From Boothiomyces macroporosus (lineage: Eukaryota > Chytridiomycota > Chytridiomycetes > Rhizophydiales > Terramycetaceae), in the NCBI GenBank assembly GCA_027604185.1, contig JADGKB010000030.1, positions 1-64,000 on the forward strand: DNA of 64,000 nucleotides. The letters run 5' to 3'. Below the pieces are notes generated by a model that ran no database searches, was not told where the DNA came from, and saw nothing but the letters and a program-made list of their open reading frames with translations. Shown piece by piece: positions 470 to 64,000 of the stretch. Both the position numbers and the translations under genes were made by a program. Every line of letters starts with the position of its first letter. Position 1 is the stretch's first letter.

Positions 470-1302
470 ATGGCAGTTAATGGCGCACATATTCAGAAAC
501 GAACCTCGAATACCAAGAAAACACAGAACGCTGCAAACTACAATCCACAGTTTTTTTCTAATGCTGGAGAATATACACACTCGCCAGAGTCAGAATCGAC
601 ATTATCCCCTTCACCAGCAATGTTCATTACACCTTCAGGAGAAGCAAGGCTAAAGTAAGACACAAAGAATCGATATTAACAACAAGGTCACGATACTGCA
701 TGAATTTCAGGATTGGTATATAATGCTAATACTTAGGAAGATGCTACAAACCTTATTGTCCTAGGATCCACGACGTTACGAGGGTTTCCCCATGCTACAA
801 TGTTTTGTTGTATGGGGAATGTAATGAGCCTAATTGCCAACTAAATCATTATCCAAATGAGCATGTTACTCCCGTGTGTAAATTTTACGAGATGGGTAGA
901 TGTACTCAAGAAGATTGTAGGTTCATGCATATTGATTTACCAAAAAATGCGCCGGTTTGTATTTACTTTGCTCAAACTGGATATTGTAGAAATGGTAAAA
1001 AATGTGCCAGCAGGCATAGCTTTGATTGCCCGTTAGGCACTCTTTGTATGCAGAAAGGTTGCTCATTGAGACATGTGCCAGGTAACGTACGATCGACGGC
1101 ACCAATTGGTAACTCATTTGAAATAGGGTCTGAATCCCCTACTTTAACACCGCTACCTGGTAAAATTATATCGCCTCCCAATGCTGTAATAGAAAACACT
1201 AATATACCAAATATATTGGCAACGACCCAATATATACCATCGATTTACGACTATAGTTTGGAACCTGAATTTAGGGATGATTATGAAGAATGGTCAGACT
1301 AA
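470..1302 (+). CDS. Five-finger CCCH zinc-finger protein (ZC3H3-like)
   Basis: A 259-residue protein is obtained by joining exons 470-654, 687-715 and 737-1302. The introns are 32 nt (655-686) and 21 nt (716-736). The splicing is supported by the protein it creates: the tiny middle exon supplies SRYCMNFRIG, which completes the first CCCH finger (CMNFRIGRC, YCPRIH) in the pattern of ZC3H3, whose first finger reads YCMYYNRFGRC. Five tandem CCCH fingers follow one another through residues of about 63-160, ending CSLRHVPGN. The tail is Pro/Thr-rich and acidic. ZC3H3-type proteins act in nuclear mRNA export and polyadenylation; CPSF30/Yth1 is the alternative five-finger family. The match to the ZC3H3 finger spacing is the better one, but the assignment is by motif only. 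Confidence 0.8.
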
Positions 1303-1335
1303 GGTAAGTTCAAGTCAATAAATAAAAATATCTAT

Positions 1336-2921: not shown

Positions 2922-4384
2922 ATGGCAGACTTTACAGAAATATTTAAACAGACAGACAGGCTATGCAGATTCTCACCAAATGGGGAATATATTGCTACCG
3001 CAGTTCAGCAGCGATTGGTGGTGAGGGAAGCTCACTCTCTCCAAATATTATCCCTATTCAACTGCAATGATCTGATACAGGAAGTTCAATGGGCAAAAGA
3101 TTCTGATCTATTGCTGGTTGGCTCTTACAAGCAAGCTAAATTTCAAATTTGGTCTTTGCATGATGAAAAGTGGACTGCTAATGTTGAAGAAGGTATAGTA
3201 GGATGTGTAAAGTTAATATGGGCTCCGGATGCCAGACATGTGCTAAGCTTTTCAGATTATCAAGTATATAGTGTTAATATAGTTACGGATAACGGTATGG
3301 TCACTGATTACAAAAAAGTCGGTGTATATTCAATATCCAAAATATGCAGACAGAGGATACGAATTCAGGACTGATGGATACTATTTTGCATTGATAGAGA
3401 GAGCAGAAGCCAAGGATTATATTAGCATTTTTGATTGTGCAGATTGGACTCTTGTCAAAGTATTTTGCACTAATATAGCGTTTTCCTACAGAATCTTGCG
3501 ATTTGGAAGACTTGAGATGGTCTCCGGATGGTAGATTTATTGCCGTATGGACCTCACTTTCGCAGGTAGGATTAACTAATACAAGTATCACGTATATCTA
3601 TATTATCCTGATGGAAGACTGGTCGCGGATTATTCTGCCTATGACTATGGCCTTGGTATAAAGGCAGCAACGTGGTCCCCATCTAGTCAAATATTAGCGG
3701 TCGGTAGCTTTGATGAAAAGGTTATCAAAACTAACCAAAGTGTCGCCTGCTCAATCATTACTCTTGGAAACCTTTAATAGAACTATCGCATGAGAAACAA
3801 GTCGCGGAAAAGAATATTGTAACAATTCACTTACTATAGCCGTGCTATAAGGAGATTGATCTAGTACAAGTAAACGGTAACACGCGATCCTGGGCAAGCA
3901 ATGTGAAGCCAAAGCTTTCTTGTAATTTTCGATTGATATAGATGAAGTCAAGAAGACACCATGTAGTGTTCCCACTATAAATGTTGACCCAGAAAAGCCC
4001 AATCCAAAAGTAGGAATATCAACTATTGCGTTCAATTGTACAGGAAACTTGTTACTTACAAGAAATGAAAAACAGCCCAATGCATTATGGATTTGGGATA
4101 TGATTAATTTAAAGCAAATGGCTTTAATTCAACAAACGCAACCAATTAAAGCAGTCGCCTGGAATCCATTGGTAAAAGAGCGGTTGGCCTTTTGTTGTGC
4201 AAGTGGATTACTATATCTGTGGGAATATGGGCTTGGTTGCGATGCAATAGAAGTTCCGGCTGGTAATTACGTATTGACAATAGTAAGCTTTAATATTGTA
4301 GATTTAGCTTGGAATCCAGATGGCAAATCGTTGTTGTTGATGGACAAGGACAAGTTTTGTTTAACCTTTTTAGTTGATGAATAG
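2922..4384 (+). CDS. WRAP73: WD-repeat protein WRAP73 (WDR8) orthologue
   Basis: A 440-residue protein follows from exons 2922-3263, 3283-3459, 3479-3565, 3586-3720, 3741-3818, 3840-3921, 3942-4262 and 4284-4384. The introns are 19, 19, 20, 20, 21, 20 and probably 21 nt. The spliced product follows animal WRAP73 almost end to end: [80 protein letters not shown] and PNALWIWDM match the human pattern in order. Human length is about 460. WRAP73 is a WD40 propeller at centrosomes and spindle pole bodies, where it partners SSX2IP/Msd1 to anchor microtubules. The last intron (4263-4283) keeps frame whether removed or not and is the least certain. This gene is the clearest proof of the 19-21 nt introns. 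Confidence 0.93.
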
Positions 4385-5349: not shown

Positions 5350-6580
5350 ATGCAACTCACTCAGCTGCTAGTTATCTACTCTGTATACGCTGCATGTCCT
5401 TTTGCAGGCGAACATAAAGTAGCAAAGCGCTCTGCCAACTGGCAGGTGAATTACAAGAATACTCTTGATAACGCTGAATGGGATCAAATTAAAGCGGAAA
5501 TCCAACCAATTATCAACCAAGGGTTTGGACCTCTTTTGGTTCGTTTATCCTGGCATGACGCTGGGACTTACGATGCTGCTTCCAACACTGGAGGCCCTCA
5601 TGCAACTATGCGCTTTGCTCCTGTTGCCAATTATGAAGCAAATAATGGTCTGGGTTCAGCTAGGAATATGTTGGCACCTATTAAAAGCCGTCACCCAGGG
5701 ATTTCTTATGCTGATTTGTGGTCATTTGCTGGAGCTGGTACATTGAACACTAATTGTAGTTGCTGTTTCCAATATTGGAGGTCCTACCATTCAGTGGAGA
5801 CCAGGTAGAAACGATGCTGTTGACAGTTCGGACTCGCTTACTCCCGATGGCAGACTTCCCGACGCTGATTTAGGAGCCGCTCATTTACGATCAATCTTTT
5901 ACAGAATGGGATTTGGCGACAGGGAAATTGTTGCACTGTCAGGAGGTCACAATTTGGGAGCTACTCATCTAGGGAATTCCGGCTATGACGGACTTTGGAC
6001 AAGTAATCCTGGTAGTTTTGGGAATGAATTCTTTACACGATTGAACAACGACTTTTTCAGCAACTATCAAACTGAAACTCTTTCTTCTGGCAAGACTCAA
6101 TATCATGATTCATCAAACAAGATGATGTTGCCAACTGATGTCAGTTTAATCCAAGACCCATCGTTTACAGGATTCGTGCAAACTTATGCGTCAGATAAGA
6201 ATGCATTTTACGGTGATTTCAAAGCTGCATTTCAGCGTTTACAAGAACTTGGAGTAGGGGGTGGACTCGGATCCCCAGTGGAAACTAGATTTGGTGTTCC
6301 AACCACTGGACATGATAATACACCCAATCCACCGCCAGTTCCAACAAAACCACAAACTACTCAGGGCACAGTTGCAAGTACGGCTGCATTACCGAAAACT
6401 ACCAAGGATGCTACCTCAACAACCAGCGCTGCCGTACCAGCTGCTTCCAGTAGCATCAGTGCAAGTGTTAGTGCTGGCGAAACTGCTGCACCTGCCACTG
6501 GGACCACAAAACCTACACCAAACTCTGCAGTCAAGTCCTTCTCCCTTGTTGGGTTGGTCATTTCGTTATTTTTGTTATAA
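5350..6580 (+). CDS. Secreted, probably GPI-anchored class I haem peroxidase (CcP-like), copy 1
   Basis: Exons 5350-5737 and 5760-6580 (22-nt intron) give 402 residues. The catalytic set is complete: distal Arg65, Trp68 and His69 in VRLSWHDAGTYD, proximal His near 193 in LSGGHNLG, the Asp of DVSLIQDPSF, and the Trp of SGYDGLW, which corresponds to Trp191 of cytochrome c peroxidase. The fold is therefore class I (CcP/ascorbate peroxidase), yet the N-terminus is a short signal peptide rather than a mitochondrial transit sequence, and it is followed by a KR-S site that Kex2 could cut. After the catalytic domain comes a Pro/Thr/Ser/Ala-rich stalk (about residues 305-385) and a hydrophobic C-terminus, the pattern of a GPI-anchored surface protein. 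It likely detoxifies H2O2 outside the cell. The true electron donor is unknown. It is a tandem paralogue of the gene at 7029. Confidence 0.85.
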
Positions 6581-7028: not shown

Positions 7029-8074
7029 ATGGTGCAAGTTTTCTCCATTTCAATGCATTTTGCTATCATCTCATTACTAACCGCTTTTGCTGGTGCTGCA
7101 TGTCCGTACAATGGAGAACACAAGATTGCGAAACGATCAGCCAATTGGCAAGTAAATTACAAGAGCACAATCTCCAATAGCGAATGGGACCAAATCAAGT
7201 CTGAAATCCAACCTTTGGTCACGCAAGGATATGGTCCAATCCTCGTTCGTTTAGCTTGGCACGATGCAGGAAGTTACAATGCTTCTTCAAATAATGGCGG
7301 CCCTCATGCTACTATGCGTTTCTCTCCTGTAGGAAATTATTCAGCCAATAACGGATTATCTGTAGCGAGGGCATTATTGGACCCAATTAAAGCTAATCAC
7401 CCGTTGATTAGTTTTGCTGATTTATGGTCTTATGCAGCAGCAAGTAAACTATCGTTAACCTAGTCGCAATTACCAACAGTGGTGGCCCAATCATTACTTT
7501 CCGTCCTGGTAGAAACGACGCAGTAGACAGCACCGATTCTCTCACTCCTGATGGAAGATTACCTAACGCCGACTTGGGTGCCGACCACTTGCGCTCAATT
7601 TTCTATAGAATGGGTTTCAATGATCAAGAAATTGTCATTCTATCTGGCGGACACAACCTTGGTAACTGCCATATGAATAACTCTGGCTATGCTGGCCCAT
7701 GGACCTCCAGTCCAAATACCTTTGGCAACGAATTCTACATTAGACTAAACAGCGACTTTTTCAACACGTACAAAAACGTAACACTATCTTCTGGCAAGTC
7801 TCAATTCAACGATTCTTCAAACGCCATGATGCTTCCTACGGACGTTTCTCTGGTCCAAGATGCAACTTTCCAAGGGTTCGTGAAGGCTTATGCTGCCAGT
7901 AAAGATGCTTTCTTTAGAGATTTCAAGGTTGCTTTTGAAAAATTGATGGAATTGGGGGTTGGTCCTGGATTGGGTAGTCCAGTCGAAACCAAATTTGGTG
8001 TTGCAACTACTGGCCAAAGTTCCGCAATTACATATGGTGTCTCACTTGCATTGGTCACTCTTTTGTTGGTTTAG
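7029..8074 (+). CDS. Secreted, probably GPI-anchored class I haem peroxidase (CcP-like), copy 2
   Basis: Exons 7029-7443 and 7464-8074 with a 20-nt intron (GTAAACTATCGTTAACCTAG) give 341 residues. The intron sits at the same place in the protein as in copy 1. Distal Arg74, Trp77 and His78 (VRLAWHDAGSYN), proximal His near 202 (LSGGHNLG) and the Trp of SGYAGPW are present, so the enzyme should be active. A strong signal peptide (ISLLTAFAGAA) precedes CPYNGEHKIAKRS, which shares the KR-S site of copy 1. The catalytic domain runs straight into a short hydrophobic GPI-type tail (ITYGVSLALVTLLLV); the long Ser/Thr/Pro stalk of copy 1 is missing. The pair looks like a recent duplication that diverged mainly in the wall-spanning stalk. 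Confidence 0.85.
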
Positions 8075-8134: not shown

Positions 8135-9933
8135 TTAATCATCGCCAATAACTGTTTCAACATGAGGGGATATCCTTTGAACTGTGTCGATAAAGTCACT
8201 AGTACTTTCTCTATTAGCAAACACCACATCCCAAAACATTACTTTGGGAACAGATGTGGGTGGTTCAGCAGGTCTGATTGGCTCACCTTCTTGCTTTCCA
8301 AAGTAGATTCTAACCCACCAAAACCAACCACTAGTAGTAGCTTGCTGTTTATTGACTGAGGTCATGGCATTATAATATCCAATGTGTCCATTTTGTAATT
8401 GGGCTCCAAGGTTCTTTAATTGGGGGAAACAAGAGTCTATTCTCCAACTTCTCCATCTTTCTATCTTTTTGATATCTGATATTCTTCCAACGCCCAACAG
8501 TGTATATTGAGGGACTACATCAATCAGAAACCCTTTCACGTGGTTATATTTTGAGGGATAGCGAGAGGAAAATTCTGGCGGGAATATAGCTGGAGGCCAC
8601 GCATCCAGCCTTTCTTGAAGGAGATATAGATACTCTCTAGTGCCCAAAATACTTACATGCTGAATTTCAGCTCCGAGTATATCAGTTTCAGGCACTGGTT
8701 TAAAGTACCGCAAGAATACTCCAAACAAATAAAGCTTAACAAAATCAAAGTCTACTTTGGTAACTTGTTCTTTAACTCCTGAATCATATTCTTCTGTTGA
8801 TAGCGGATTAACTTGGGATGGCCATGCATCATATTTGAGGATTTGGCTTTCTTTGTCACCTGGTTGTAATATAATGGTATCTTGGAGATTCTTTATGCAC
8901 CATTCAGTATCTTGATTTATAAGAGTAGATCTGTCTTGTGAATTTTCCTTCACTTCATCCAATAACGTGGTAATTGAATCAACTACTTGCGTTGTCAAAT
9001 ATCTTGATCTAGTTTGAAATAACACAGATAAAATAACGGGTTCTTTTCCAGGCATTCTTGTGTCCGTGTGGAATACTAAATATTGCCTCCTTGGACCAAC
9101 ATCGATCCTATCCATTTCAAAAATAGACATTTTCTGACAGATTTCAATCAGCTTTGAGGGATTCATATACATGGTTTGTTCATCTTGAAGAGGGGCTTTA
9201 AGATTCCCCAGTTTAAATAATGGTCTGGCAATGTAAACATACTTGTTGGTCAATAGAAGGTAGCCCGGGTAATTTTGACCCGGAATAGTTTGATCATGCT
9301 TTTCCACATTTTTAAATAGTTTTGCAAAATTGAAATCTATTGTTAATTGTTATTACTATTTTGCTGGTTCACGAACGGCGAGCTTTGAACGAGAAAACTT
9401 CCTGGTATCCAATAAATGATCCTCTCATTATCCTCCAACACCCTTAATTTCAAATGCAACTGTAATGCATTGGTCATTTGCATGAATGGTATTAATGGCT
9501 GTGATTTTTCAACAGTGGAAGAGTCCCCAAAGCTATTTGAAAACATAGATCCTGATGATCGAGAGTACCTGGGGCCAGACTTTACGGATTTCGGTCTGTT
9601 AAGTATAATTTCAGAATTGTTTGATCTAGTAGATTGTTTGTCAATGACTACTCTGGTAATTGTAGGTGGAACTTTGATCACATTGGGATATGACGATGAA
9701 AATAAACGCTCTTTTTGAGATGATACCTCAACAATTGATGTGTATTTGTGAGTAGGGCTCTTTGGTCGTTCCGGCTCTTTCTTTTCCCTTTCCGGTTTCT
9801 CGTATACTCGTATGTATGGTCCATGGGATATCAGCTTTGCTTCCAATGAAGATATTGTGTAGGCTTGTGCTTGCTCAATTGCCGACGTTAATCTACTTTG
9901 GTTCGGTTCAACGGGTTTCTTTGGAGATGACAT
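8135..9933 (-). CDS. Uncharacterised 592-residue protein with a PH-like region
   Basis: Exons 9933-9357 and 9336-8135 join through a 20-nt intron (GTAATAACAATTAACAATAG). Without it the second part would have to start at a GTG, whereas splicing gives one continuous frame (NFNFAKLFKNVEKHD). The first 190 residues are polar and Pro/Ser-rich, with a charged KPEREKKEPERPK stretch, and are probably disordered. The middle (from about residue 165) alternates strands in a way that resembles a PH or related lipid-binding fold: ERIIYWIPGSFL, YPGYLLLTNKYVYIARPLFK, RQYLVFHTDTRMPGKEPVILSVLF. The C-terminal half is mixed alpha/beta with many Trp. No family is recognised with confidence; large PH-domain scaffold proteins are one possibility. 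Confidence 0.65.
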
Positions 9934-9972: not shown

Positions 9973-10727
9973 TCAGTCTTCATCTTCAAATACAAGAGCT
10001 TCCTCTACTTCAGGCTCATCGATTTTCTCTTGAATGACGACATCGACGTCCTCGCCTTCTCCCATGTATTGTTCATCACTCTTCAACAACGCGGTGTTTT
10101 CTTCAAATAATTGTCTACCAGTCTTTTTGCCGCCAGTTTCCAGTAACTTTTCTACCGCCAATGCATCCTTCATTGCCTATATTAGAATGCAATTACCAGC
10201 GTGAGTTCTTTTCCACTCTTTTTCAATTCAGTAGCCTCCTTTAGAAATGCCTTTTGCCACTCTTTAAATGATTCCTTTGTTACTCTAGTTCCTATATATT
10301 TGATTCGCTCTTCTTCCTCTTGCTTTTCCAACAGTTCTTGTCTTTCCTTTTCTAATCTTTCTAGACGATCTTTGATGGTGATTTCAGACTGTTCTTTTAA
10401 CCACGAAACCATTAGAAATATCATTCCAATACCCAGTTGATCATTGCATTGTTGGGTCAATTGTGAAGATAGCTCTGCAATTTCTTCCTCTAATAGATAC
10501 GAGGAATTAATCACAAATTCTGGTATTTCTTCCGGATAGGTTGGGGTAAAAGTTATTTCTATAGACAAGAGCCATTCTTCATCCTCCTGCCTGATTGATT
10601 CTAAATCAGGGTCGTCCAAATGCACATTGATTACAAAATTCTTTGGGTCGTTAATTACCAATTCATTTTCCTGGTAAATGAATCCTAATGCTTCCAATTC
10701 TTGTTCTTGTTCGGCTTGATGATCCAT
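9973..10727 (-). CDS. RWDD1: RWD-domain protein, RWDD1/Gir2 orthologue
   Basis: Exons 10727-10197 and 10176-9973, joined across a 20-nt intron (GTAATTGCATTCTAATATAG), give 244 residues. Residues 1-115 are an RWD domain starting EQEQELEALGFIY and containing the diagnostic YPEEIPEF. A long charged helix (ERLEKERQELLEKQEEEERIK) follows, then GTRVTKESFKEWQKAF and KTGRQLFEEN, the two signatures of RWDD1/Gir2, and an acidic tail. Gir2 binds the GTPase Rbg2/DRG and Gcn1 on translating ribosomes and dampens Gcn2 activation. The intron is essential for joining KELTL to AMKDALAVEKLL. The 3' end is 40 bp from the start of the next minus-strand gene. Confidence 0.9.
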
Positions 10728-16951: not shown

Positions 16952-18229
16952 CTATAATACGAATATCCAGATTAATGAAGCGAGCGGAACTATTTTAGTT
17001 GCTGCGTTAGGAATTGAAGGATCATAATCATAAGGCCCTCGAAGGGTGGTGGCATACGTTTGATTATTGGAATCTACAGAAAAGGTTACATCTCCTATAA
17101 CTACTTGCGGAGCAGCATCTTGAGGCTACAGTTAAATATGGTTTACTTTTGATGCTTGGGTTGGTGCATTGATGGGAGGAAGTGTTACTGCAGGCAGAGT
17201 TTCTTGTATTTGTGGTAAAGTAGGGACTGGATTAAAAGCTGGGGTTGGATTGCCGGTAAAAACAGGTACTACAGGAGGAGTGTAGCCTATTACTTGTGGT
17301 AATTCATTTGAATTTCCTTGTGAAATCCCGGTAATATCATTCTGGGGGGATACAGCAACATTACTTTGACCATTTGCTTGCGAACCAGGACTAGGTGTAT
17401 TGGGTTGACCATTCGATGTAGTTCCTGCATTATTTGAATTAGAAGTAGTTCCTGCATTATTTGAATTAGAAGTAGTTCCTGCATTATTTGAATTGGAATT
17501 AATTCCGCCAGTATTTGAATTAGAATTAGTTCCGCCAGTATTGGAATTAATATTAGAAGTTGAACCTAATTGGGAGCTGGGGGTGCTACCAGTTGGATTA
17601 TTAGTGATGCCGGCATTTGATGTACTTTCCGGATTACTCGTCTGGCCATTTAGGTTAGTTCCCGTTTGCAAACTACCCCCAACTGATGTATTCAATGTGC
17701 TTTCGGTATTTCCAGACTGGCTGTTTGTTGTACCTCCTGTTTGTCCTGTTGTAGAACCAATTTGTGTATTAGCATTCTGTATATTTCCAGGAATAGCACC
17801 AGAGCCAGTGTTTACAGTTTGCCCTCCGGTTTCGCTGTTTGCAATTGCCTGCGAATTTGACCCCAGATTAGTTTGACCAACTTGACTCGTGCTAGAACCA
17901 ACTGCGGCATTCCCAGTGCTACTCTGCGATCCTAAGCTACTTCCAGAGACCACAGAGCCTCCAGTATTTTCACTATTACCCCCACTGGTAATAGAGCCTG
18001 TTCCAGTATTTGAACTCGAACCAGTATTACTTCCAGTGCTTCCTTGAGATCCAGATGTACTGCCATAACCTCCTGTACCAACAATACTTCCTGTGTTACT
18101 GCCAGTATAACCAGTTTCTCCATTGGATAAAGTTGCATCTTTAAAAGAACCCAAAACTTTACGTTGTGCGCTCCCAGTAACCAATCCAAACACACCCTTA
18201 CTTAATAATAAACACGCGATATGTTTCAT
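16952..18229 (-). CDS. Gly/Asn/Ser/Thr-rich, probably GPI-anchored surface protein
   Basis: Exons 18229-17147 and 17125-16952 with a 21-nt intron give 418 residues. The intron matters: it links the long low-complexity region to a globular-looking C-terminal piece (QDAAPQVVIGDVTFSVDSN, YATTLRGPYDYDPS) and a hydrophobic end (IVPLASLIWIFVL), the pattern of a GPI signal. The N-terminus (HIACLLLSKGVFGLV) is a signal peptide. Residues 35-330 are repeats of Asn, Gly, Ser, Thr and Gln, including three copies of GTTSNSNNA encoded by a 27-bp minisatellite. It is probably a cell-wall or adhesin-like protein. The C-terminal VVI..VTF module recurs in the neighbouring gene at 18353. Confidence 0.72.
17421..17495. 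repeat. 27-bp minisatellite inside the surface-protein gene
   Basis: The unit starting GTTCCTGCATTATTTGAATT and ending AGAAGTA is repeated at 17421, 17448 and 17475 (the last copy diverges at its end). Being 27 bp long it keeps the reading frame and adds nine residues (GTTSNSNNA) per copy, so copy number can change the length of the wall-spanning region without breaking the gene. Confidence 0.85.
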
Positions 18230-18860: not shown

Positions 18861-19318
18861 TTAAAAATCAAACGAGGAACCAAATTCAAAGTTGGGTTCA
18901 TCATCACTTAATTCGACAGAGTCCCCCGCTGATCCCAAACCATCAATATCCATAGTTTCATTATTTGCGGATGAATTCCTATTCACCTGCTTTTCTGTAG
19001 CGTCCTTGTTTATGAATTTTGCAATATCATCAAAATCCTTGAGATCCTCTGTTTCCACCTAAGTTAATATTAACACACAGTCTGGTTGAGTTACAGGTTA
19101 CCGTTTCTACAATATAATCATCCTGTAGCACAACTTTGTTTTGTTTGACGAGTTGTTCTAGCTTATCTGTGCTCTCTATAAACTTTTGGTATCTCTCTAA
19201 TGCTCTTCTCTGTATTTCAATCTTGCGCTTTAATTCGATAATTTCCTTGTTAAGAACTTTCTACTTGATCGTAATCTCTCATCAACATCAAATCTCTGTA
19301 GACTTCATTCACCATCAT
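18861..19318 (-). CDS. Small coiled-coil protein with acidic tail (131 residues), unidentified
   Basis: Exons 19318-19265, 19245-19102 and 19058-18861, with introns of 19 nt (GTAGAAAGTTCTTAACAAG) and 43 nt, give a continuous 131-residue product. Residues 15-60 form a heptad-like helix (QEIIELKRKIEIQRRALERY, KLEQLVKQNK). The rest is polar and acidic, ending SDDEPNFEFGSSFDF. Small subunits of nuclear complexes such as Mediator or kinetochore assemblies have this look, but I see no diagnostic motif. The 43-nt intron is the longest inferred in the window. The gene starts only 29 bp from an ATG on the opposite strand at 19348. Confidence 0.6.
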
Positions 19319-36887: not shown

Positions 36888-36979
36888 TGGCTAATTAGAA
36901 AGTTTCTACCTTCATCTTTTTATTCAAACTTTTCATTTTCAATTGTCAAGTTTGAATTTGGTAAACAAAAAAATTTGAC

Positions 36980-47482: not shown

Positions 47483-48313
47483 TTACAATTCAAAAGTGAG
47501 TGCTTCATAGTATTTAATCTTTGGTCTTATCGAAGGGCAAATAAGCGACGCCAAGTACGGCTCATTTCTAATCAGCTTGCGAGAGTCGATAATCGAAATA
47601 TCGGATCGTTCAACCAGCCCATTTCTCAATTGTCTCTTCAAAAGCTTCCTTTCCATGATTCCATGAACTGGATACAAATTCTTTGAAATAAAAGATTGAG
47701 CAGAGCCTGTCTTAGTTTGATTTTACCTGCAATGTTTTTTGGTAGTTGGTTCACACTCTTTCGTTTTGACATCTGAGCTGCCAGTCGCATTCTCTTGAAT
47801 TCCTTTGTAAGAGTCAATATTTGTGCATGCAATGATGGGGCTATTGACGAGCTGGTTACCAGGTTGCGTTGACTATATCAAAATATTAGTACCTTAAATC
47901 TTCAATTGTCGGTCTTTTTTGTAAATGTCTGGTTAGTACTCTTTTTTGCTGCAACTGTTTGAGCAATACGGAAATTTGATAACTGGTAACTCCAAATGGG
48001 CCAGAGTAGTAAGAACCAGTGTTGATATCATTAGTCAGTGAGGTAATTGAACTTGAAGAGCGGAGTATATTTCTTCTTACTAAATCCAGTCGATCCGGTC
48101 GATCGGCTTTAGACAATAAAAAGTTAACTTGGTTTAAATTTCTTTCGGTAAATATCATTTTCCATAATATTGGGTCAGTAGCTAACGTTCTGAATTTCTT
48201 TGATACCAAAGTCATAGTGCGTAAATCGGTATCGGGAACAAACTAGTTTAACTACAGATTACCAATAATATAGAAAGTAATATTTCCAAAGGGAGCTGTT
48301 CTAAACTTGTCAT
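47483..48313 (-). CDS. F-box protein (256 residues)
   Basis: Exons 48313-48263, 48242-47893, 47872-47726 and 47705-47483 with three 20-nt introns give 256 residues. The first intron (GTAATCTGTAGTTAAACTAG) joins MTSLEQLPLEILLSILL to FVPDTDLRTMTLVSKKFRTL, forming a standard F-box at residues 4-45 (LP.EIL..IL..V...DL......SK.F..L). After the F-box come TDPILWKMIF and a helical basic region with no recognised repeats (KEFKRMRLAAQMSKRKSVNQ). It is likely a substrate receptor of an SCF ubiquitin ligase. Without splicing the gene appears as three unrelated short frames. Confidence 0.78.
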
Positions 48314-50773: not shown

Positions 50774-51140
50774 ATGACCCTAGAATTTATCGATAATTTC
50801 AACAAGCAGCTACAAATTGAGCAAGAAAAGTTGAAACAACGACAGTTGGAGCGTAAGAATGGACATTGCCTGACTTGCTTGGATTTCAGTCCAAAGCCAG
50901 TTGATATAAATCAAGTGGCTAGAATCGTTACGCAGCAGCCAGAGCAGCGTATTTATTTGGTAACTATAGCGAAATGGAAGGAAATTGGATTTCCAAAGTT
51001 GCAGCAAAAAACTGATTCTCAAGTTACTATAGTAGAGGAAGGTACGAGTGAGCAAGTTGCTAAGCCAATTAGTTGTAAGTATGGTTAAAATAGGGGTTAG
51101 TGATGTTATTCCTGCGCTGGGCTTAGCTTGGGGGTTTTGA
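50774..51140 (+). CDS. Small unidentified protein (115 residues)
   Basis: Exons 50774-51074 and 51094-51140 are joined by a 19-nt intron (GTAAGTATGGTTAAAATAG). Removing it converts the end from a short CKYG to WVSDVIPALGLAWGF, a hydrophobic finish that looks more like a real C-terminus. The start MTLEFIDNFNKQLQIEQEKL is a charged helix. A pair of cysteines follows (GHCLTCLDFS). No family is recognised. It starts 25 bp after the PIG-L gene. Its 3' end converges with AsnRS with 65 bp between stops. Confidence 0.58.
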
Positions 51141-51205: not shown

Positions 51206-53019
51206 TTATGGTTGGCAACGGTTCTTGAAACGTGGGTAGAGGCATACATCACGAACAGAGTATCTGTTCAATAGCCAAGCCAAGTAACGCTCAACACCTA
51301 AACCAAAACCACCATGTTCGCAAGTACCGTATTTTCTTTGGTCAGTGAACCAATAGTATGGCTTTGGATCAAATCCTTCCCTTGCATATGCTGCCATCAA
51401 TTCATTCTAATGTTAAACAAGATATACATAGTCGGCAATTCTCATGCTTCCTCCAGTAATTTCACCAACACCAGGCATCAACACATCAACACTTTCGGTC
51501 AATCTTGGGTCTTCAGGGCACTTTTTCATGTAGAAACTCTTGATTTCGACTGGGAATCTGCACAACAAAATTGGTTCGCCAATTGTATCAGTCATTAAAC
51601 GCTCTGGAGATTCAGGAATGTCTTCGCCAAATTCATAATCGACTTTGATTTCGTTTCCGTTTTCATCCAAAACAGGGTTATCGTTTTCATCAACCAAAGT
51701 CTTTTTGATTCCGTTATCCTTGAGCCATTGAATAGCGTCAGCATAGTCCATTCTTCTGAAGGGCTTTTTAGGAGGTTTAAAGTTTGGGTTCAATTCCATC
51801 AAAATTTGTTTACTGATTGGATTTGCCATGACTGCATCAACAACTGATACAATCATGTTTTCAATTCTATCCAAGAGGTCATCAAAAGTAATAAATCCAT
51901 ATTCAGCCTCACAATGAGTAAATCTGTTTTAGTACTTCAATTACTCTGAAAGATGTCTACGGGTGTTGGAGTTTTCAGCTCTGAAAGATTCAGTCATACA
52001 GTAAGCATCACCAATTGATGGTAATACCGTTTCCAAGTACAATTGAGAACTTTGTGTCAGGTAAGCAGTTTCACCGTAGTAGTTAAAGTCAAAGATAGCG
52101 CTTCCACCTTCAGCTTGCGATTGCACCATCAATGGCGGAGTTACTTCAAACACATTTTGCGAATCAAAGTGGTCTCTGAAAGCCTTGAGTGTGATTGAGC
52201 GGAATTTCAATACGGAAGATGCAATATCTCCACGAATAACAAGGTGACGTTGATCAAGGAGCAAATCAGGGCTAGAATCTGCGGTGAACAAGTTTCCAAA
52301 TGCTTCATCACCACCAGGTGCCTTTCCAATAACCTCCCAGTAATCACAAATCAATTCATGACCGCCGATAGCCTAAATAAACAGATAATTACAGTCTTTC
52401 CTTCTGGTAATTCCTGAATGACCCCATAAATGGATACAGTTGACTCCAAAGTTAGAGTGAGAGCGTCGTACGTGTGGCATTGCTTTCCGGTTAAAACACA
52501 TTGGATTTGGCCATAACCATCTCTTAATACAATAAACATCATATCTTTTCCTTGAACTCTAAGTCTATGAACCCATCCAGAGACTTTAACTCTCTTTCCA
52601 CGATATGCGGTTGAATCTCTTAGCCTAATATATTGTGCTTCAGGCAGAGAGCTATCTTGTTCCAACACAATTGCTCTTGCGGCTTCTAATTTTGCCAATT
52701 CTGCAGCTTTTTGTTGCTCTGCTTTTTCACGATCCTGTACAGCTCTTTCTGCGTCCTTGGCAGCCTTCTTTTGTTGTACTTCATAGGCTTTAACGGCCTT
52801 CTTCAATGCAGCTTTTGCAGCTGGTGCGTATGGCTCCAGTATTTCCTTTCTTACTTGGACATCGTATTTGCTGATTTCACCATTTACATGAGTAACGGCT
52901 TTCAAAAGGGATTTAAAAGGCATTTTCTCAGTTCCAATACCTTCCCCATCGTTTCCTTGAACTTCACACACAAATAATTTGCCAATAATTTCCTGCTTTG
53001 CTTGTTTAGATTCTGACAT
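51206..53019 (-). CDS. Cytosolic asparaginyl-tRNA synthetase
   Basis: Exons 53019-52393, 52372-51945, 51923-51428 and 51406-51206 with introns of 20, 21 and 21 nt give 583 residues. The eukaryote-specific N-terminal extension (residues 1-115, with a Lys/Ala/Glu helix) precedes an OB-fold anticodon-binding domain ([27 protein letters not shown]). The class II core has [20 protein letters not shown] (motif 1 region), motif 2 [21 protein letters not shown], created by the second intron, and motif 3 [15 protein letters not shown]. All three introns fall inside conserved blocks, so the splicing is secure. The enzyme charges tRNA-Asn. Its 5' end is near the dipeptidase 3' end on the same strand. 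Confidence 0.95.
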
Positions 53020-53093: not shown

Positions 53094-54335
53094 TTATTGG
53101 CATGTTTTTGGAAACTCAATTCGAGTTCTGTCAATCGGAACATTAGTCATTTCTTTGGCAATTAGTTCCGTCTTTTTCAGCACTCGAATTAGGTTGGCTC
53201 CCATGATGTTCACCACATCTTTGTCAGAAAATCCTCTTTTGATGAGCTCTGCAACGAGATATGGATACTTGGAAACGTCTTCCAAGCCTTCTGTTACCAC
53301 GTCAATTCCATCAAAATCTCCACCAAAACCAACATGTTCTGGGCCAACAAGATTTGAAATATAAGAAATATGATCTGCAACTTGACTCAGAGTTGCTTTG
53401 GAGCTACATGAAATGAGATTTGGCCAAAAGTTGATCATTACTACGCCATCCAATTCCTTCATTGCTAGTAACACATCATCAGGCTAACTATTAGAACATG
53501 GTACCATATTTCGCTCAGTTGGACATAAACTTGCTGAAGAAGAGTGCGAGGCAAATAGTGGTGCTCTGGTCGCTTTAATCACATCCCTCATTGTCTTGTG
53601 AGAGACATGGGATATATCCACCATCATACCAATTCTATCATCAAAAATTAGTCACCTGTTCATTTCCTTTACAATTTTAATCCCAAAATCAGTCAATCCG
53701 TTATGCAATGGTGGCATTGAAGCAGAATCTGCCCAGTTTGTATGGCACCCATGGGTTAAAGTCATATAGCGAACCCCCAGATCATAATACATACGGAGAG
53801 CTTCCAAAGAGTCATCAATTTGATGGCCTCCTTCAATTCCGATTAAAGAAGAAATCTTTCCTTGTTTGAAGAGTGAAATGATATCATCAGCTTCAGCGGC
53901 GTATGCAAAATCCGGATTATCTTTGATGAGCTGCTTGACAATATCAATTTGCTGTAATGTTTTCAAGATAAAGTCACCTTTCTTTGTCAGGTCCTTCTCA
54001 CATCCAATATATGCACTCCAGATTTGGCCTGTTAATCCTCCTTCTCTCATTCGTACAATATCGGTATGGAAACTTGAAGGAAGAACCGTCACATTCAAGA
54101 CATCATCCTTGCGGTTTCTAATTGACCATGGCAAGTCGTTGTGAGTGTCAATAAGTGGATGATGGTTAATCAGAAATCGTGCGCGCTCCAAAGGGTCAGA
54201 GGGAATTTCATCAGATTTGAGATATTGAAAATGGTAAAACCCAAATACAGAAATGATCAGCAATAGCGGAAGCCATCGAAATGGACACTTTTTGGTTTTG
54301 CGAGTTGGTGCATCATGTGTTGCGAGTCCTTTCAT
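53094..54335 (-). CDS. Membrane dipeptidase (M19, renal-dipeptidase family)
   Basis: Exons 54335-53656, 53634-53505 and 53483-53094 with two 21-nt introns (the first with a GTGACT donor) give 399 residues. A basic cytosolic leader and a signal anchor (WLPLLLIISVFGFYHFQYL, 21-39) place the catalytic domain outside the cytosol. Zinc ligands are visible: His65 and Asp67 in DTHNDLPW, Glu168 in IGIEGGH, and His residues in VDISHVSH and ASHSS. The second intron restores ERNMPDDVLLA, which matches the family block NVPDDVL. The C-terminal GFGGDFDGID is the substrate-binding signature. The enzyme hydrolyses dipeptides and cysteinyl-glycine from glutathione breakdown. The start lies 17 bp from the divergent SET-domain start. 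Confidence 0.92.
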
Positions 54336-54910: not shown

Positions 54911-54936
54911 CAAAAAGTTTGACGCGTCTAATTAGT

Positions 54937-56178
54937 ATGGCCTTATCGCTAAAAGAGGCAAAGTTGGAATACGTAGAAATAAATCCTCTTTCAAACCCAA
55001 AAGGAGTAAAACGATTATGTGAAATATGTGAGAAACCGGCTTATCGTCAATGTAAAAACTGCAGGGTTACGTACTACTGGTAGCTCTTTCTAATTCCAGT
55101 GATAAAGACCACCACACGATTGATTTTAAAGGAATTCATCATCTAATATGTAATCAGCTGTCACTATTGAGGAATTCAGAAGCAATTTTGGGGAGTGAGG
55201 AAGAAAGGGCAGAACAGAAACGACAGCAAGTTAAAAGACAAGTAAGCAGTGCTAATGCAGATGGAGTTATTGCGTATATCGAAACAGCAATCTTATAGAT
55301 ACTTATTTGAAGGGCAATATGAACTCGCAATTCCAGCTGCTCTCCAATCTCTAAAATTTTCCATGGCAGTGTCTGGAGATAGTCCAATTAATTTAGTTCC
55401 TTCGTATTTGATTCTTGGGGAAGCCAGTATAGGTATTAATTTTTTAAATCAGGAATGAAGAGGTACTACGAAGCTGAAAACTACCTATCATTGGCAAAGT
55501 GGGCAATTTTAAAGTCTGAAGACTGCGCAAACGATATAAAATCCAAACTGCACCGCAACTTTGGCCAACTTTATGCCGCTCGAGGACAGTATGATAAAGC
55601 ACTCCATCAACTTGCGTTAGATGTATTACTGTATTAAACGTAGATCACATGCATCACTATGCATACTAATAACCCAGAGGATGTGGCAGTTTCTGGAGGC
55701 TATTACCACATGGGAATAATATTTCAAAAACAAGGAAGAAATGGAGATGCGGTTGCATTCTACGATATTGTAGTTTCCATATGGTCAAAAGTATGGACCC
55801 CAACCTTTAAACTAGGTAATTCACTATTTGATTGCAGACATTGCTCAAGCAGCAGAAGCAATTCAAATGATTTCCTCAATCCACAAGTTCAGGCAACAAA
55901 CATCAGAAGCAACAAGTTCGGCAGTTAGAACCTCTTCTTTTACACTTGCAAAAATGTATTTCAGTGCAGGACAGTATGATCGTGCCAAGGAGCAAGGATT
56001 CAAAGCACTGGAAGGTAATTACTAAATAAATATAGCCTTTGAAGCGGCTTTGGGAAGAGAACACTCAGCTACGATTGAAGTTCGAACGTTTTTGAAGAAT
56101 GCTGCTTCGTTAGCTCCAATGATAACTCAAAGAAAGCACAGAGGCAGCTTTAGTGCTCCTGCTCCTACAACTTTATAA
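54937..56178 (+). CDS. ZMYND12: ZMYND12 orthologue (axonemal MYND/TPR protein)
   Basis: Exons 54937-55079, 55100-55241, 55261-55432, 55453-55622, 55644-55815, 55838-56014 and 56036-56178 with introns of 20, 19, 20, 21, 22 and 21 nt give 372 residues; human ZMYND12 has 365. The MYND zinc finger is at about 30-70 (RLCEICEKPAYRQCKNCRVTYYC, IHHLIC), completed by the first intron, which makes the Cys of YYC. Then come TPR repeats with family-specific phrases: YRYLFEGQYELAIPAALQSL, VPSYLILGEASIGM, YYEAENYLSLAKWAILKS, LHRNFGQLYAARGQYDKAL and SGGYYHMGIIFQKQGR. ZMYND12 localises to the sperm axoneme and partners TTC29 in dynein-arm docking. Its presence implies a motile flagellum. Confidence 0.92.
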
Positions 56179-58855: not shown

Positions 58856-60117
58856 ATGCAAGTTGACTTGGACATTGCCAGCTATTTAAGCCAACAAAAA
58901 ACCAAATATCCGGAATTCAAAGACATCTTTGCTCAATTCGAGACCTTGTACGATCAAAAGTAGGCTGAAATTAACACCAGATTATGGCACCAGCTTACTG
59001 TTGCTCTTGAAAAGCTGTTGGCCAACCCAAAATCACATTCTCTATTAATACCACTATACAATAACTTTGTAAAAGACTGGGAATCAAAAATGAACCAAAT
59101 CAGTCTAGTTAAATTTGTCAGTTTAACCAGCGTACAGCTTGGAGGTATTTATGAATTAAACAGATCACAAAAAAGCGCTTGAATTTTTAACTCCATTTGC
59201 TACTAAACTTAAAGGCGATGATAGTGCAAAGGATGCGTACGTGTTGATCTCTACCGAAATTGCCAGAAACAAGTTGTTGAGCGGTGACTTGGAAGGATGT
59301 AAAACCAATATTGAAGAATGTGAAAAGATTTTGGACTCTTTGCCAGGAACTGACCCAGTGATTAATGCTGGCTTTTACCGTGTTTCTTCAGATTATTTCA
59401 AAGCAACCATGGGATATCCGCAATACTACCACAATGCTTTACTATTTCTATCTTCAGTTTCTCTGGATGATTTGACTGTTCAGGAAAAACAAGAGCGTGC
59501 ATTTGAATTGTGTATGAGCGCTCTGTTGGGCGAGGGATTGTACAACTTTGGTGAATTAGTACCTTTATTTAACATAGCTTATGCACCCAATTCTAAACAC
59601 TTTGCAAGGAAGCAGCTATGCATGGCTGCGTGAATTATTATTCTTTTACAACTCTGGAAATATGGAAGGATTTGAAAAAACAAGTAAATCAGGAGAATTC
59701 CTTCGTCAAGTAGATTTAAACTAACCCAGCCTTTATTGGTATCTGCTCTTCCGTTCTTGAGACAAAAATTATGTTTAATGACATTGGTTGAATCTGTGTT
59801 CAAAAGATCAAAAGAAGAAAGAGGAAGACTTTCATTTGCAGATATTTCTAAAGAAACTAGGGTTGCATTTGATGAAGTTGAACATTTAGTAATGAAAGCT
59901 TTATCTCTTGGTTTAATCAAAGGGAGCATTGATGAAGTGGATTCTATTGTCTCTGTAATTTCAACTAATATAGGTAACATGGGTCCAACCTCGTGTGCTA
60001 GACAAGAACCAAATAGGACACATTGGAAAGCGTATTGAAGAATGGAGTTTGAAAGTAAGCCAACAAGTAATTGGACTTGAAAGCCAAGAAAGCTTTACTT
60101 CCGTGTTTGCGCAATAA
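58856..60117 (+). CDS. RPN9: 26S proteasome regulatory subunit RPN9 (PSMD13)
   Basis: Exons 58856-58959, 58981-59144, 59164-59558, 59578-59709, 59730-59954 and 59974-60117 with introns of 21, 19, 19, 20 and 19 nt give 387 residues, the normal length for Rpn9/PSMD13. Conserved stretches: YPEFKDIFAQFETLYDQK at the start, GDHKKALEFLTPFA, FGELLMHPILNTLQG (created by the 59559-59577 intron), LRQKLCLMTLVESVF and the PCI-domain end SFADISKETRVAFDEVEHLV, VTWVQPRVLDKNQIG, WSLKV (the last created by the final intron). RPN9 is a PCI-domain lid subunit beside the deubiquitinase Rpn11. Its 3' end is 30 bp from the convergent TPR-like gene. Confidence 0.95.
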
Positions 60118-60147
60118 ACTTTTACTAGTACTTTATTATGCAATGTG

Positions 60148-63100
60148 TTATGTTGGAGGCTGTCCTCTACCTCTTCCAGAACCAGGTCTTGCACCACGCA
60201 CTTTAATGGAACCTTTCCCTCGCACAGCTCCTAGAGGTACGGTCCTTATGACTTTTGGTTTAGTAGCTTGGTCAGAAGTAGGAGTGGTAGTATTTTGCCC
60301 CTTTTCTTTTTCAGCTTTTAGTTTGGCTTGTAGCAGTAGTGCTTTTTGCTTCTTTTCCATCGCGGACAAGGCTGAACTGTCTTGTTTGACAGGAGCTGTT
60401 TTTGCTGAATTACTTTCTGCAGGCTTTACATTAACTGGCGGGTTTGGTGTAGTTCCAGCCGGGGTGGTAGCTAAGGGCTTGATAGATACAGGGGTAGATA
60501 CGGTAGTAGTCACTGGAGTGGCAGCTTTCGTAGTGGTTGGTGTAGCACTTAGTGTAGTGGATGGATTTACAATTGCAATTGGTTTTGCAGGAGTAACACT
60601 TGCCTGAGGTTGCTTAATTGTGACAGGGGCTGAGACTGCTTTAACGACTAATGGTGCGGAAGGAGGGACAGCCGCTGGTATAGCTTGCTTTTCAGTGGCA
60701 GTATTTGTGGCAGGCTGGGCAGTTGTAGGAGTGGTAGTAGCACTTGGAATAGTATTTGTTCTTTGAATTACTACTATTTGTGAAGAAGTAGTTTTAGTTG
60801 GACTTGAGGGGGTTTTTGCAGGACTTGATGGTGCAGATTGAGTTTGAACAATCTCTGGTTGTGGAGCGAGGACAGAACTTGTCGTGTTGGACACGCTGAT
60901 TTCATTCTTTGGGAGAGATGTTCCAAATACCGACTCCATTGGTTTTGCAATGTTAACCGATCCACCAAAGGCTGACTGTTGCTTGTTCTGGGAAAATAGA
61001 GGAGTGGTAGTTCCAAGCGGAACAATTGGGGGAATTGGAATAACATTTTTCGACTCCTCCTTTGGCAGAGTAGGTGTTGGTTCCTCGACATTGCTTTCTT
61101 CCTGCTGGGTAGAGATATCCTGAGCAGAAGTTTCTTCTACTTCTGGTTCAACAGCCTCATCAGCTGATTCCATTGCAATGTCTGCATTCCCTTCTTCGAC
61201 TTGCTCTTCATCGTCTTCATTGTCAGGAACATCTTCATATTCATCATTCTCTCCCTCCCCTTCTGCCTCCAAATCAATTTGATCCTCGTCATTCAAATTT
61301 TCAGGGGGTTGTTCGTCAGCAACCTGCTCTTCATTATCCACTTTGACTCTCTTTGAGGTTTCTTCCGATTCAAAGTCAGAATCCCTTGGTCTCTTTGGAG
61401 TAGTGGCATTTTCAATTTGTGATTCGTCTTCTGGTTTTTTTGGTACGGAAGAGGAAGACTCCAATTGTTTTCGCAAACTTTCCGCTTTTGCCTCCCATTC
61501 TTTCACTATGGCTTGGATTTCTTGGTCTTTAATATGCGTCAAGGAATCCTTCTGTTCAGATAGAGCAGTGTTTAATCTATCCTCTGCGCCATCTTTCTCT
61601 TGCTGTAACGCAGTGATAGTCTGCTTTAGTTCTTTTACTTGAGCAGCCTTCGCCTTCAGTTTTTCATTCGCTTGGCTGGCCAAATCTCTGTTCCTGGCAA
61701 CGGCAGCATCCAACTTTCCTTGAATTTCCGCCTAACATTATCAAAGAATTACCAATTGCTCGCTTCCAACTTTATCTTTAGAGTCACTCAAAAGCTTTTG
61801 GTTTTCGGCAACTAATCTGTCTCTTTCTGCAACAAGAGAAGCAACTTCTTCAGTGAGCTTCAATACAGCCTGTTCTTTCTCGGATATCTTTGCATTGAGT
61901 TCGTCCCTTAATTTGATCAGTTCTTGGGCCAATTCTTCATTTTTTCCTGTCAATGTTGTAACACTGTTCTTCAACTGCTGGTGCTCCATTGGATCAATTC
62001 TCTCATATTTCTCTAATATTTGCTGTGCCCTTCCTTTCCATCTAGCATTATCTTCGGTAAGATTGGAAATTTCAGCTTTCCTTACTTCTACCTCTCCTTC
62101 TAGCTGGAAGATTTGCTCTAAACTTAAAGACAAAATACCTTTGAGAGGTGAGATTTGATCTTCTAGCGATTTGATCTTGACTTCTAAAGATTCCACTTTC
62201 TTTCCTGAAGCTTCAAGCTGGTTGCGCAATGTAATATTTGATTCCCGCAACAAGTTACTCTGTTCAATTTTTTCCATAAGTTCCAAATGTTTTCTTTCAG
62301 ATCCAAGACTTTCCTGGCTTCTTTTTCTTTCTTCTTCAAGAATTAATCTATTTTCATCCAATGATTTTTGCAAATGCTCAATTTGCAATCGAGATCTCTC
62401 TGCTTCTTGTCTTGCAATTTGCAGCTTGGTATCAACAATCTCTTTTTCTCTTCTCAAATATTTGATAACTTCATTCAATTCAGCAAGATTTTCATTGTTT
62501 CCTTCCGTTTGTTCACCAGTTGGAGCAGCCGACGTTCTAACTGAAGTTAATTGCTCGAATTGTGCATGTAACAAGTTGTTTTGATTATTTAAATCTATCA
62601 CCCGGGTTTCCAGTTCAGAAATCTCTTTTTGTAATTTGTTCTTTGTCGAGTTGAATGTTTCAGTGAGCTGTGCCAAGTTCTCCTTTGCAACATTGCATTC
62701 TGTAACTGCGACTTCTTTTTCTTGAGCCAAAGTTAAATTGGCTTGTTTCATTTGCGAAAGAGATTGAATAGTTGCAGAGTGGGCGACAATTTCGCGTTCG
62801 TAATTATCTTGGGCATCCTTGGCAATTTTGGCCTGCCTTTCTACATCCGCTTTCATCTCATTGACATTAATAATGGCCTATGGTTAAAATCCTCTTACCG
62901 TCTTTTCGCGTTCTTTCAGTGACAGTATTTGTTTATCGTAAACGGCTAAAGTGTTTTTATGTTCACTTTGCTCAAGATCCATTGCTTCTTGAGTTGAAGT
63001 AAGAGTTTCTCCCAACTTTTTCAACTGCTCAACCAAATCGGTACGTTCTTGTTCAAGTCTAGTTGTTTTGTTTGTCAATTCTGCAATCTTTTCTTCCATC

Positions 63101-64000
63101 TCAGATTTGTAAACATCAAAAGTGGTGTTCATTTCGTCTAGTCTTTCTTCACTAGCTTGGCTAATTTGCTTGAATGTTTCCGCCTGTTCAGTAACTAGAA
63201 CTAATTCGGCCTTCAGCTTTTCAACTTCAATTCTTGCTTTTGCCAATTCAGATTCCAAAGATCTAATTTGATCAATTTCGGTTGCTTCGGGACCCAGCTC
63301 TCCTGTATTTAATATCTTTTCCTCGTAAATACGAGCTTTGTTTTCTGCTTGCTCCAGTCTGATGGTTAACTCTGACAATCTTGCTGTTGCTGCTGCCTCT
63401 TTACTTTGAACCACTGACAATTCTCCCTTTGTTCGTTCAAAATTGCCGGTAAGTTTTTCAACTTTAAGTTGATATTCTCGCATTTCTGCATCCCTCTTTG
63501 AGCTTAGAGTTCGTTGATCATCCAGCAAATCATTGAGCTGTTTTCGAGAAAGTTGTAGCTCCCTTCCAAGTTGCTCGATCTGAGCTTCAAATTTCTTTAC
63601 GTTTTGCAGGTGGGCGTGATCTTTTTCCTCTAGGAGTGACTGAATTTCTCTTATCCTGTCGTTTGCGAGATTTCGCTCCTTGATTAGGTCTTGAACATCT
63701 TTTGACATACGAGTTTCACTCTGTTTCCAGACCTGCTTTTCTAATTTTAGGTTCTGATTCTCGAAAGTTGTAGTATCTAGAGTTTGGCGAGTGCTGGACA
63801 AAGTGTTGGATAATTCTTCAATTTTAAGATCTTGACGAGTTGACATGGTGTTGAGCACCGAGAATCGCTCCTTCAATTGTTCGAATTCCTTCTCTTTGGA
63901 TTGCAAATTATTGAGCAGCATTTCATGGCGATCTAGTGTAAGCAAAGCATATACCATTAAGATACGAGATCTGATTATTCAACTTTGCAACCTGGATTGA
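60148..64000 (-). CDS. TPR/Mlp-type nuclear-pore basket protein, 3' part (partial)
   Basis: Exons 64000-63955 (continuing off the window), 63932-62899, 62877-61753 and 61731-60148 with introns of 22, 21 and 21 nt encode 1263 residues of a larger protein. The first 860 residues are unbroken coiled coil, with SYLNDRHEMLLNNLQSKEKE near the beginning, as in TPR and Mlp1/2, where the SYL.ER...L block is conserved. Then come an acidic segment (NDEDQIDLEAEGEGENDEYEDVPDNEDDEE), a Pro/Thr/Ala/Ser-rich stretch of about 250 residues and a basic Gly/Arg end (GKGSIKVRGARPGSGRGRG). TPR forms the nuclear basket and takes part in mRNA export. The acidic-then-disordered C-terminus matches TPR. The N-terminal half is outside the window. 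Confidence 0.85.

Follow-up and report, generated by a model that had tools for sequence, protein, structure and literature searches.

The first 64,000 nucleotides (nt) of contig JADGKB010000030.1 of Boothiomyces macroporosus (contig C30; the window, below, means this whole stretch) carry genes interrupted by segments of 19-23 nt, and these segments are almost certainly genuine U2-type spliceosomal introns of a Boothiomyces-like chytrid nucleus in which nearly all of the sampled introns are of this size. Removing the segments restores the coding frames, and 264 of the 267 introns in our final gene models measure 18-23 nt, i.e. nearly all introns of the sample lie in the narrow range below about 26 nt that marks a micro-intron genome. 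The sample consists of the window and twenty 10-kb stretches (200 kb) of contigs C1-C10, picked by location and not by content except for one C2 stretch centred on a homeobox hit, and it thus covers 264 kb on 11 contigs, a non-random 1.7% of the 15.2 Mb genome. The size class probably extends from the sample to the whole genome, which at about one intron per kb, extrapolated from this non-random sample, would hold about 15,000 introns. An earlier note on the window had claimed that nearly all of its introns are micro-sized with a mode at 20 nt, and this is upheld by the counts just given, by alignment of WRAP73 and RPN9 with their homologs and by a control with a flat length prior.

The short class is apparent already when very little is assumed about introns. 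A scan for GT..AG segments joining two coding frames, scored with a third-order coding model since a fifth-order one was too sparse, found 145 of them in the 19-21 nt range, where nine other dinucleotide pairs gave 25-81 each, and at 41-80 nt GT..AG was unremarkable, with 1089 sites against 775-1665 for the other pairs. The least informed gene finder, which was given GT..AG, frame and coding statistics (interpolated fourth-order) and a constant cost per intron only, called 77 introns, with 20 nt as the most frequent length (24 introns); 42 calls are 18-23 nt and 32 are 29-144 nt long. Among the 42 short calls, 86% have, unasked, an A at +3 and 64% a T at +6, and near the 3' end there is a T-(T/A)-A-A block in which one A reaches 86%. 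Thirty-two of the 42 contain YTRA at 4-7 nt from the 3' end, as against 6.1 on average, and never more than 15, when the inner intron bases were shuffled in 1000 trials. Donor and branch consensus are absent from the 31 calls above 30 nt made by the same finder.

A refined finder was equipped with donor, branch and acceptor matrices that were first trained on calls of 17-24 nt, the branch motif being seeded by hand. With a flat length prior over 12-150 nt it placed 145 of 164 introns at 17-23 nt and 19 above, and with an informed prior, which favours 17-24 nt and spreads 8% of its weight over 12-300 nt, it gave the 267 introns of the final models. Their lengths are 18 nt (2), 19 nt (67), 20 nt (118), 21 nt (57), 22 nt (16) and 23 nt (4), together with single introns of 38, 43 and 57 nt that all lie in the 200 kb outside the window; none is shorter than 18 nt. 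Introns were called in all 21 sequences, that is the twenty stretches and the window, and at least one is found in 94 of 145 genes, with a maximum of ten per gene. As a control, the splice matrices were applied to letter-permuted sequence in five decoys that left the coding model intact. With a flat prior over 12-300 nt the true signal yielded 195 introns, of which 171 were 18-24 nt, 1 shorter and 23 longer, while the decoys yielded 30-86 introns with 1-4 at 18-24 nt and 28-82 longer. Under the informed prior the decoys gave 7-38 short introns (18-24 nt) out of 22-68, as compared to 264 of 267 for the true signal.

The junctions are furthermore fixed by homology without recourse to splice signals. 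For each of WRAP73 and RPN9, 45 of 120 homologs were aligned to the genomic DNA, allowing gaps in the DNA of up to 400 nt at constant cost and giving no preference to GT or AG, and all twelve predicted introns were recovered on or a few nt from their predicted places; the earlier note had claimed that many junctions are fixed by the protein match, with RPN9 among its examples. In WRAP73 (2922-4384, plus strand) the seven introns, given with their length, which equals the modal gap, and the number of supporting homologs out of 45, are 3264..3282 (19 nt, 42), 3460..3478 (19 nt, 43), 3566..3585 (20 nt, 23), 3721..3740 (20 nt, 43), 3819..3839 (21 nt, 33), 3922..3941 (20 nt, 15) and 4263..4283 (21 nt, 31). 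The third of these appears as a 23-nt gap in 20 further homologs, and the sixth is the weakest of the twelve, the homologs other than its 15 being scattered. In RPN9 (58856-60117, plus strand) the five are 58960..58980 (21 nt, 42), 59145..59163 (19 nt, 40), 59559..59577 (19 nt, 44), 59710..59729 (20 nt, 43) and 59955..59973 (19 nt, 41). In twelve homologs viewed in detail, most gaps coincide with the GT..AG segments or are displaced from them by a few nt. All twelve introns are also called by the gene models.

Similarly, AsnRS (51206-53019, minus strand) with its three introns removed (52373..52392, 20 nt; 51924..51944 and 51407..51427, both 21 nt) aligns over residues 11-583 to a solved cytoplasmic AsnRS (PDB 8tc8), with gaps elsewhere and none at the three junctions, in keeping with what had been claimed for this gene. 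YTRA occurs 4-6 nt from the 3' end in 13 of the 15 introns fixed by homology in WRAP73, RPN9 and AsnRS. The further claim that junctions in a MYND gene and a Rab gene lie inside conserved motifs is confirmed by Pfam, since intron 55080..55099 (20 nt) of the MYND/TPR gene (54937-56178, plus strand) falls within the MYND match, and both introns of the Rab-like gene (41978-42893, minus strand), 42805..42824 and 42670..42689 (20 nt each), fall within the Ras match, the latter at WDTAGQE. Beyond the window, Pfam matches six chaperonin (CCT) models, which have 5-7 introns apiece, each in a single uninterrupted stretch of 487-489 of 490 positions; a seventh, L041, looks 5'-truncated and stands outside this test. 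The seven models together hold 39 introns, 38 of which are 19-24 nt and one 44 nt long.

The anatomy of the 267 introns is close to uniform. The numbers of bases before and after the branch A are 14/5 (64 introns), 13/5 (53), 13/6 (41) and 14/6 (33) in 191 introns together, and the remainder are mostly 14/4, 15/5, 13/7, 15/6 and 14/7 plus a tail of poor branch calls. The donor is mostly of the form GTA(A/T)nT, with GTAAT, GTAAA, GTATT, GTAAG and GTAAC the commonest; its context is mostly G|GTAAnT, and few donors have the G that the usual consensus shows at +5. The branch motif is mostly YTRAY, the introns end in TAG (167), CAG (59), AAG (37) or GAG (4), and their A+T content is 71.5%. The GT..AG ends expected of U2-type introns are required by the finder, and their weight is shown by the comparison with the other dinucleotide pairs and with the decoys.

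Parts of a matching machinery are encoded by the genome. The U1 small nuclear RNA (snRNA) gene starts ATACTTACCTG and has an Rfam match of 68.8 bits, just under the cut-off of 69.5, two U2 genes both carry GTAGTA, and a U6 gene carries ACAGAGA; no match to U12 (RF00007) was found in the genome, in a search that cannot show absence. By eye, the donor is complementary to U1 and the branch motif to U2, and to judge from these sequences the target-pairing regions of U1, U2 and U6 look canonical. Profile matches above the family cut-offs were obtained for SF1, Prp18 and Slu7. The idea that the very short distance from branch point to 3' end goes with loss of Slu7, Prp18 or U2AF65 found no support when the three were searched for. 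As a separate observation, the 11-mer TTAAAATGAAA begins 4-15 nt past the end of the Rfam match in both U2 genes and in U1 (L010:1708, L011:1695, L032:1676), is absent at the U6 locus and has no occurrence on either strand of the 264-kb sample; possibly it belongs to the 3' end of snRNA genes, in which case it could serve as a handle for finding U4 and U5.

Our best reading is that the micro-introns are ordinary GT-AG introns squeezed to the floor. The major spliceosome would then remove them by its usual two steps, releasing a lariat with a circle of about 14-15 nt and a tail of 5-6 nt. The U1 duplex would reach to about +6 and the U2 duplex would take up about 6-7 nt around the branch A with two or three bases free between them, so only a few bases would separate the duplex of U1 (or U6) from that of U2, and a polypyrimidine tract would find no room. 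Proteins of the U2 small nuclear ribonucleoprotein (snRNP) contact the region upstream of the branch point, and the stretch normally gripped there would in these genes be the 5' exon. Presumably deletions shortened the introns until they reached a minimum imposed by this geometry, in a host that would be unlike the usual reduced parasites and endosymbionts. A far more encompassing statement, namely that a free-living culturable fungus with an essentially conventional spliceosome removes introns of 18-24 nt, at least some ten thousand of them by order of magnitude, whose fixed 13-14/5-6 geometry denies U2 snRNP a grip on the intron upstream of the branch point, with U2 gripping the 5' exon and U1 and U2 hardly seated at the same time, that this holds throughout the Terramycetaceae and that it makes for the first non-parasitic fungal micro-intron genome, is, taken as one joint claim, only slightly more probable than its negation.

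Several points weigh against the segments being spliceosomal introns of nearly uniform size. Their removal from transcripts is a prediction from the DNA. Judging by the decoys, up to about 14% (38 of 264) of the short introns could be false calls, although this is probably an upper estimate because the decoy runs leave real introns unspliced. The flat-prior runs are biased, as their matrices were trained on short introns and their branch motif was seeded by hand; free of this bias are the GT..AG scan, the GT..AG-only finder with its motif tallies, and the signal-free homology alignment. Sixty introns measure a multiple of three; an in-frame stop is present in 49 of these, and for the other 11 the frame gives no proof. 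With regard to the machinery, the best match to U2AF65, scored exon by exon, extends over positions 168-471 of the 510 in the profile and falls short of the family cut-off, its spliced model giving three RRM matches in Pfam; U5 had no Rfam match in the genome, in a search that cannot show absence; and both Slu7 and Prp18 are kept, contrary to the dispensability expected at a branch-to-3' distance of 5-6 nt. Finally, long introns may have been under-called, since the informed prior leaves only 8% of its weight to 12-300 nt.

The last point leads to the rival explanation that survives best, even though we find it very improbable, namely that the short introns are real and that many ordinary introns of 50-150 nt were missed by the method. 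The flat-prior run indeed has 23 of 195 introns above 24 nt, and the GT..AG-only run has 32 of 77 above 28 nt (at 29-144 nt), both of which also count against a uniform size class; four longer introns survive the informed run, three at 38-57 nt and one at 44 nt. However, the decoys produce 28-82 calls above 24 nt and so exceed the 23 of the real signal, and most of the 29-144 nt calls are taken as errors because the 31 that were examined lack donor and branch consensus. In addition, five long window calls of an earlier model dissolved in the final models, two turning into a pair of micro-introns, two into one micro-intron and one vanishing, and in the signal-free alignment of 45 homologs each, neither WRAP73 nor RPN9 has a long gap that recurs.

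Sequencing or assembly errors that mimic introns, which the earlier note had named as a possible cause of the frame shifts, are in our judgement next to impossible as an explanation. The assembly is a draft (15,203,306 bases in 216 contigs), but blocks of 19-21 nt with GT..AG ends and a branch motif at a fixed distance are not expected from errors, most of the 45 homologous proteins are uninterrupted at the sites of the segments, and introns were called in 21 of 21 sampled sequences from 11 contigs. Removal at the DNA level, as for the internal eliminated sequences of ciliates, or skipping by the ribosome, as for translational bypass elements, would likewise account for short, precise and frame-restoring segments, which do occur in those systems, yet it has a negligible likelihood here: the ends are GT and AG and not the TA boundaries of internal eliminated sequences, donor and branch consensus match the genome's own U1 and U2, and the host is a fungal nuclear genome with splicing factors.

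The protein hits of the window point to the nucleus of a chytrid closely related to Boothiomyces, and they bear out the earlier suggestion of a probable fungus. The DHHC acyltransferase at 40763-41953 has its best hit in Boothiomyces sp. JEL0866 (91% identity) and WRAP73 in Terramyces sp. JEL0728 (85%), and spliced RPN9 is 99% identical to that of Boothiomyces sp. JEL0838 over all 387 residues, with 4 differences. Boothiomyces belongs to the Terramycetaceae of the Rhizophydiales; such chytrids are free-living in soil, and the nearest named relatives of the fungus studied here are saprotrophs. An origin of the sequence in the reduced nucleus of an endosymbiont or parasite, such as a nucleomorph or a microsporidian, might be considered since introns of 18-21 nt in the chlorarachniophyte nucleomorph and a few short ones in microsporidia are mentioned in PMC10245619 (section 7), but it is hardly credible given that all three searched proteins hit Boothiomyces or Terramyces best (85-99%) and that the genome is 15.2 Mb and has genes such as DHHC acyltransferase, WRAP73 and homeobox genes.

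Among the systems with which these introns may be compared, Paramecium is free-living and has many short introns like the chytrid, but it is a ciliate and its introns, of about 25 nt, are slightly longer. The number of Paramecium introns is given as more than 90,000 in PMC10245619 (section 7), which also lists heterotrich ciliates, mikrocytids and the chlorarachniophyte nucleomorph as bearers of tiny introns. Stentor coeruleus has 15-16 nt introns and a total of 8,806 annotated introns (PMC9505925), and it shares with the chytrid U2-type GT-AG introns that are AU-rich and have a near-fixed branch A, canonical pairing regions of U1 and U2, and a free-living host. In Stentor, a ciliate, the branch A is at position 10 of 15 with a 5-nt tail and no strong consensus (PMC9505925), whereas in the chytrid it is mostly at position 14-15 of 19-21 within a clear YTRAY. 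The branch-to-3' module is accordingly alike in both (about 5 nt) and the 5'-to-branch module 4-5 nt longer in the chytrid, and this suggests that both have reached the same minimum in the 3' module.

PMC10245619 supplies the remaining comparisons. The Bigelowiella nucleomorph has introns in a similarly narrow size class, 18-21 nt, but it is what remains of an endosymbiont's nucleus, its roughly 300 genes holding over 800 introns, as opposed to a 15.2 Mb fungal nucleus. Mikrocytid introns of 16-17 nt resemble those of the chytrid in their near-uniform length and conserved motifs, but there are 224 of them in an intracellular parasite with a strongly reduced spliceosome, whereas the chytrid has about one intron per kb of the sample and the four factors sought, SF1, U2AF65, Slu7 and Prp18, are present. 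Microsporidia are related to fungi, but as reduced parasites they have few, relatively short introns (PMC10245619) where the chytrid has many. The list of minima in the earlier note, those of Bigelowiella, Stentor and Paramecium, omits the 16-17 nt introns of mikrocytids.

Our literature search, mainly of open-access papers, found no account of introns in Boothiomyces or Terramyces, nor of genome-wide micro-introns in chytrids or non-parasitic fungi, and a printed account may exist; the passages seen of PMC9138132, PMC9894930, PMC6733946 and PMC7466969 are not about chytrid intron length. The public RPN9 protein of Boothiomyces sp. JEL0838 already omits all five micro-introns, and the trait is in this way implicit in public annotation, which qualifies the earlier note's impression of novelty. 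Other public models appear defective (P0123, P0121 and P0242, from Boothiomyces JEL0866 and Terramyces JEL0728). The JEL0866 WRAP73 protein lacks a stretch of 215 nt whose limits are exactly the intron 1 donor and the intron 2 acceptor, so that the exon between the two introns is lost with them, and misses a second stretch of about 205 nt, and the WRAP73 and RPN9 models of Terramyces JEL0728 each lose residues at one micro-intron. We read these defects as an effect of the annotators' minimum intron lengths, and the protein models hint that the Boothiomyces and Terramyces relatives share the same introns. In this group, gene finders that enforce a minimum intron length could join genes wrongly, and the defective WRAP73 and RPN9 models are likely cases. 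Since micro-introns have so far been tied to reduced endosymbionts, parasites or ciliate nuclei, a chytrid whose introns are near the shortest known for a spliceosome is a possible new test case for minimum intron size, and as a fungus that keeps the 3' splice-site factors that were sought it would serve to probe both the lower size limit and the need for a reduced spliceosome. The relatives bear culture-collection strain numbers, which makes direct study feasible.

Within the window, at a gene score cut of 12, the models comprise 36 genes, of which 22 contain introns, 68 in total (19 nt, 15 introns; 20 nt, 30; 21 nt, 17; 22 nt, 4; 23 nt, 2), and three further introns sit in genes below the cut. 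The tally of about 15, 30 and 18 introns of 19, 20 and 21 nt in the earlier note is thereby closely approached, and its total of about 73 introns in about 25 genes is nearly reached with 71; two longer introns of 32 and 43 nt, which it had reported with no coordinates, have no counterpart, as none of the 68 exceeds 23 nt. Apart from those given elsewhere, the introns called by the models on the plus strand are 55242..55260 (19 nt), 55433..55452 (20 nt), 55623..55643 (21 nt), 55816..55837 (22 nt) and 56015..56035 (21 nt), the second to sixth of the MYND/TPR gene; 5738..5759 (22 nt) in gene 5350-6580; 7444..7463 (20 nt) in gene 7053-8074; 19804..19824, 19881..19901 (both 21 nt) and 20326..20345 (20 nt) in gene 19758-20917; 20989..21008, 21302..21321 (both 20 nt), 21536..21556, 26544..26564 (both 21 nt) and 26683..26702 (20 nt) in a putative UBR1-like gene, named by eye, at 20953-26967; and 34422..34444 (23 nt) and 35984..36005 (22 nt) in gene 34127-36505.

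On the minus strand they are 9337..9356 (20 nt) in gene 8135-9933; 10177..10196 (20 nt) in gene 9973-10727; 17126..17146 (21 nt) in gene 16952-18229; 30103..30121, 29751..29769 (both 19 nt), 29135..29154, 27929..27948 (both 20 nt) and 27146..27168 (23 nt) in gene 26985-30598; 33581..33599, 33503..33521 (both 19 nt), 33175..33195 (21 nt), 33025..33044, 32796..32815, 32656..32675, 32495..32514 (20 nt each) and 32311..32329 (19 nt) in gene 31676-33942; 48243..48262, 47873..47892 and 47707..47726 (20 nt each) in gene 47483-48313; 53635..53655 and 53484..53504 (both 21 nt) in gene 53094-54335; and 62878..62898 and 61732..61752 (both 21 nt) in a coiled-coil gene at 60148-63957. Two weak minus-strand genes, each with a score of 17, contribute 19246..19264 (19 nt), 19082..19101 and 19059..19078 (both 20 nt) at 18861-19318, and 36891..36909, 36803..36821 (both 19 nt) and 36672..36691 (20 nt) at 36507-36936. 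The three introns below the cut, all on the plus strand, are probable at 716..736 (21 nt; gene 700-1302, score 10.4) and 39464..39483 (20 nt; gene 39205-40034, score 11.6) and possible at 51075..51093 (19 nt; weak gene 50774-51140, score 5.7).

A few observations stand apart from the above. The 44-nt CCT intron is at position 1490 of locus L038, where the other introns are 19-21 nt, and it contains GATC twice. This tetramer, which was spotted by eye ahead of testing, occurs in 10 of 39 introns of the seven CCT models (whose loci include L033, L034, L036, L038 and L040) versus 4 of 267 introns elsewhere (Fisher p 2.6e-7), the general intron sample with its 4 of 267 showing no enrichment. It also occurs at 24 sites within 400 bp upstream of the seven models, or 18 sites for six when the truncated L041 is left out, whereas 128 genes average 1.3 sites each (p by resampling 1.5e-5 for the seven and 1.3e-3 for the six). 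GATC could be a regulatory element common to these genes, small enough for micro-introns to contain it too. In the window, three similar intronless genes of about 270 amino acids, membrane proteins by eye, lie close together at 11600-12400, 13104-13910 and 15142-15972. The neighbouring genes 43364-44661 and 44893-46402 are likewise similar to each other and transporter-like by eye, the former with one intron (43731..43750, 20 nt, plus strand) and the latter with three (45020..45038, 19 nt; 45421..45442, 22 nt; 46164..46183, 20 nt; plus strand), and the pair is a possible site for studying recent gain or loss of introns.

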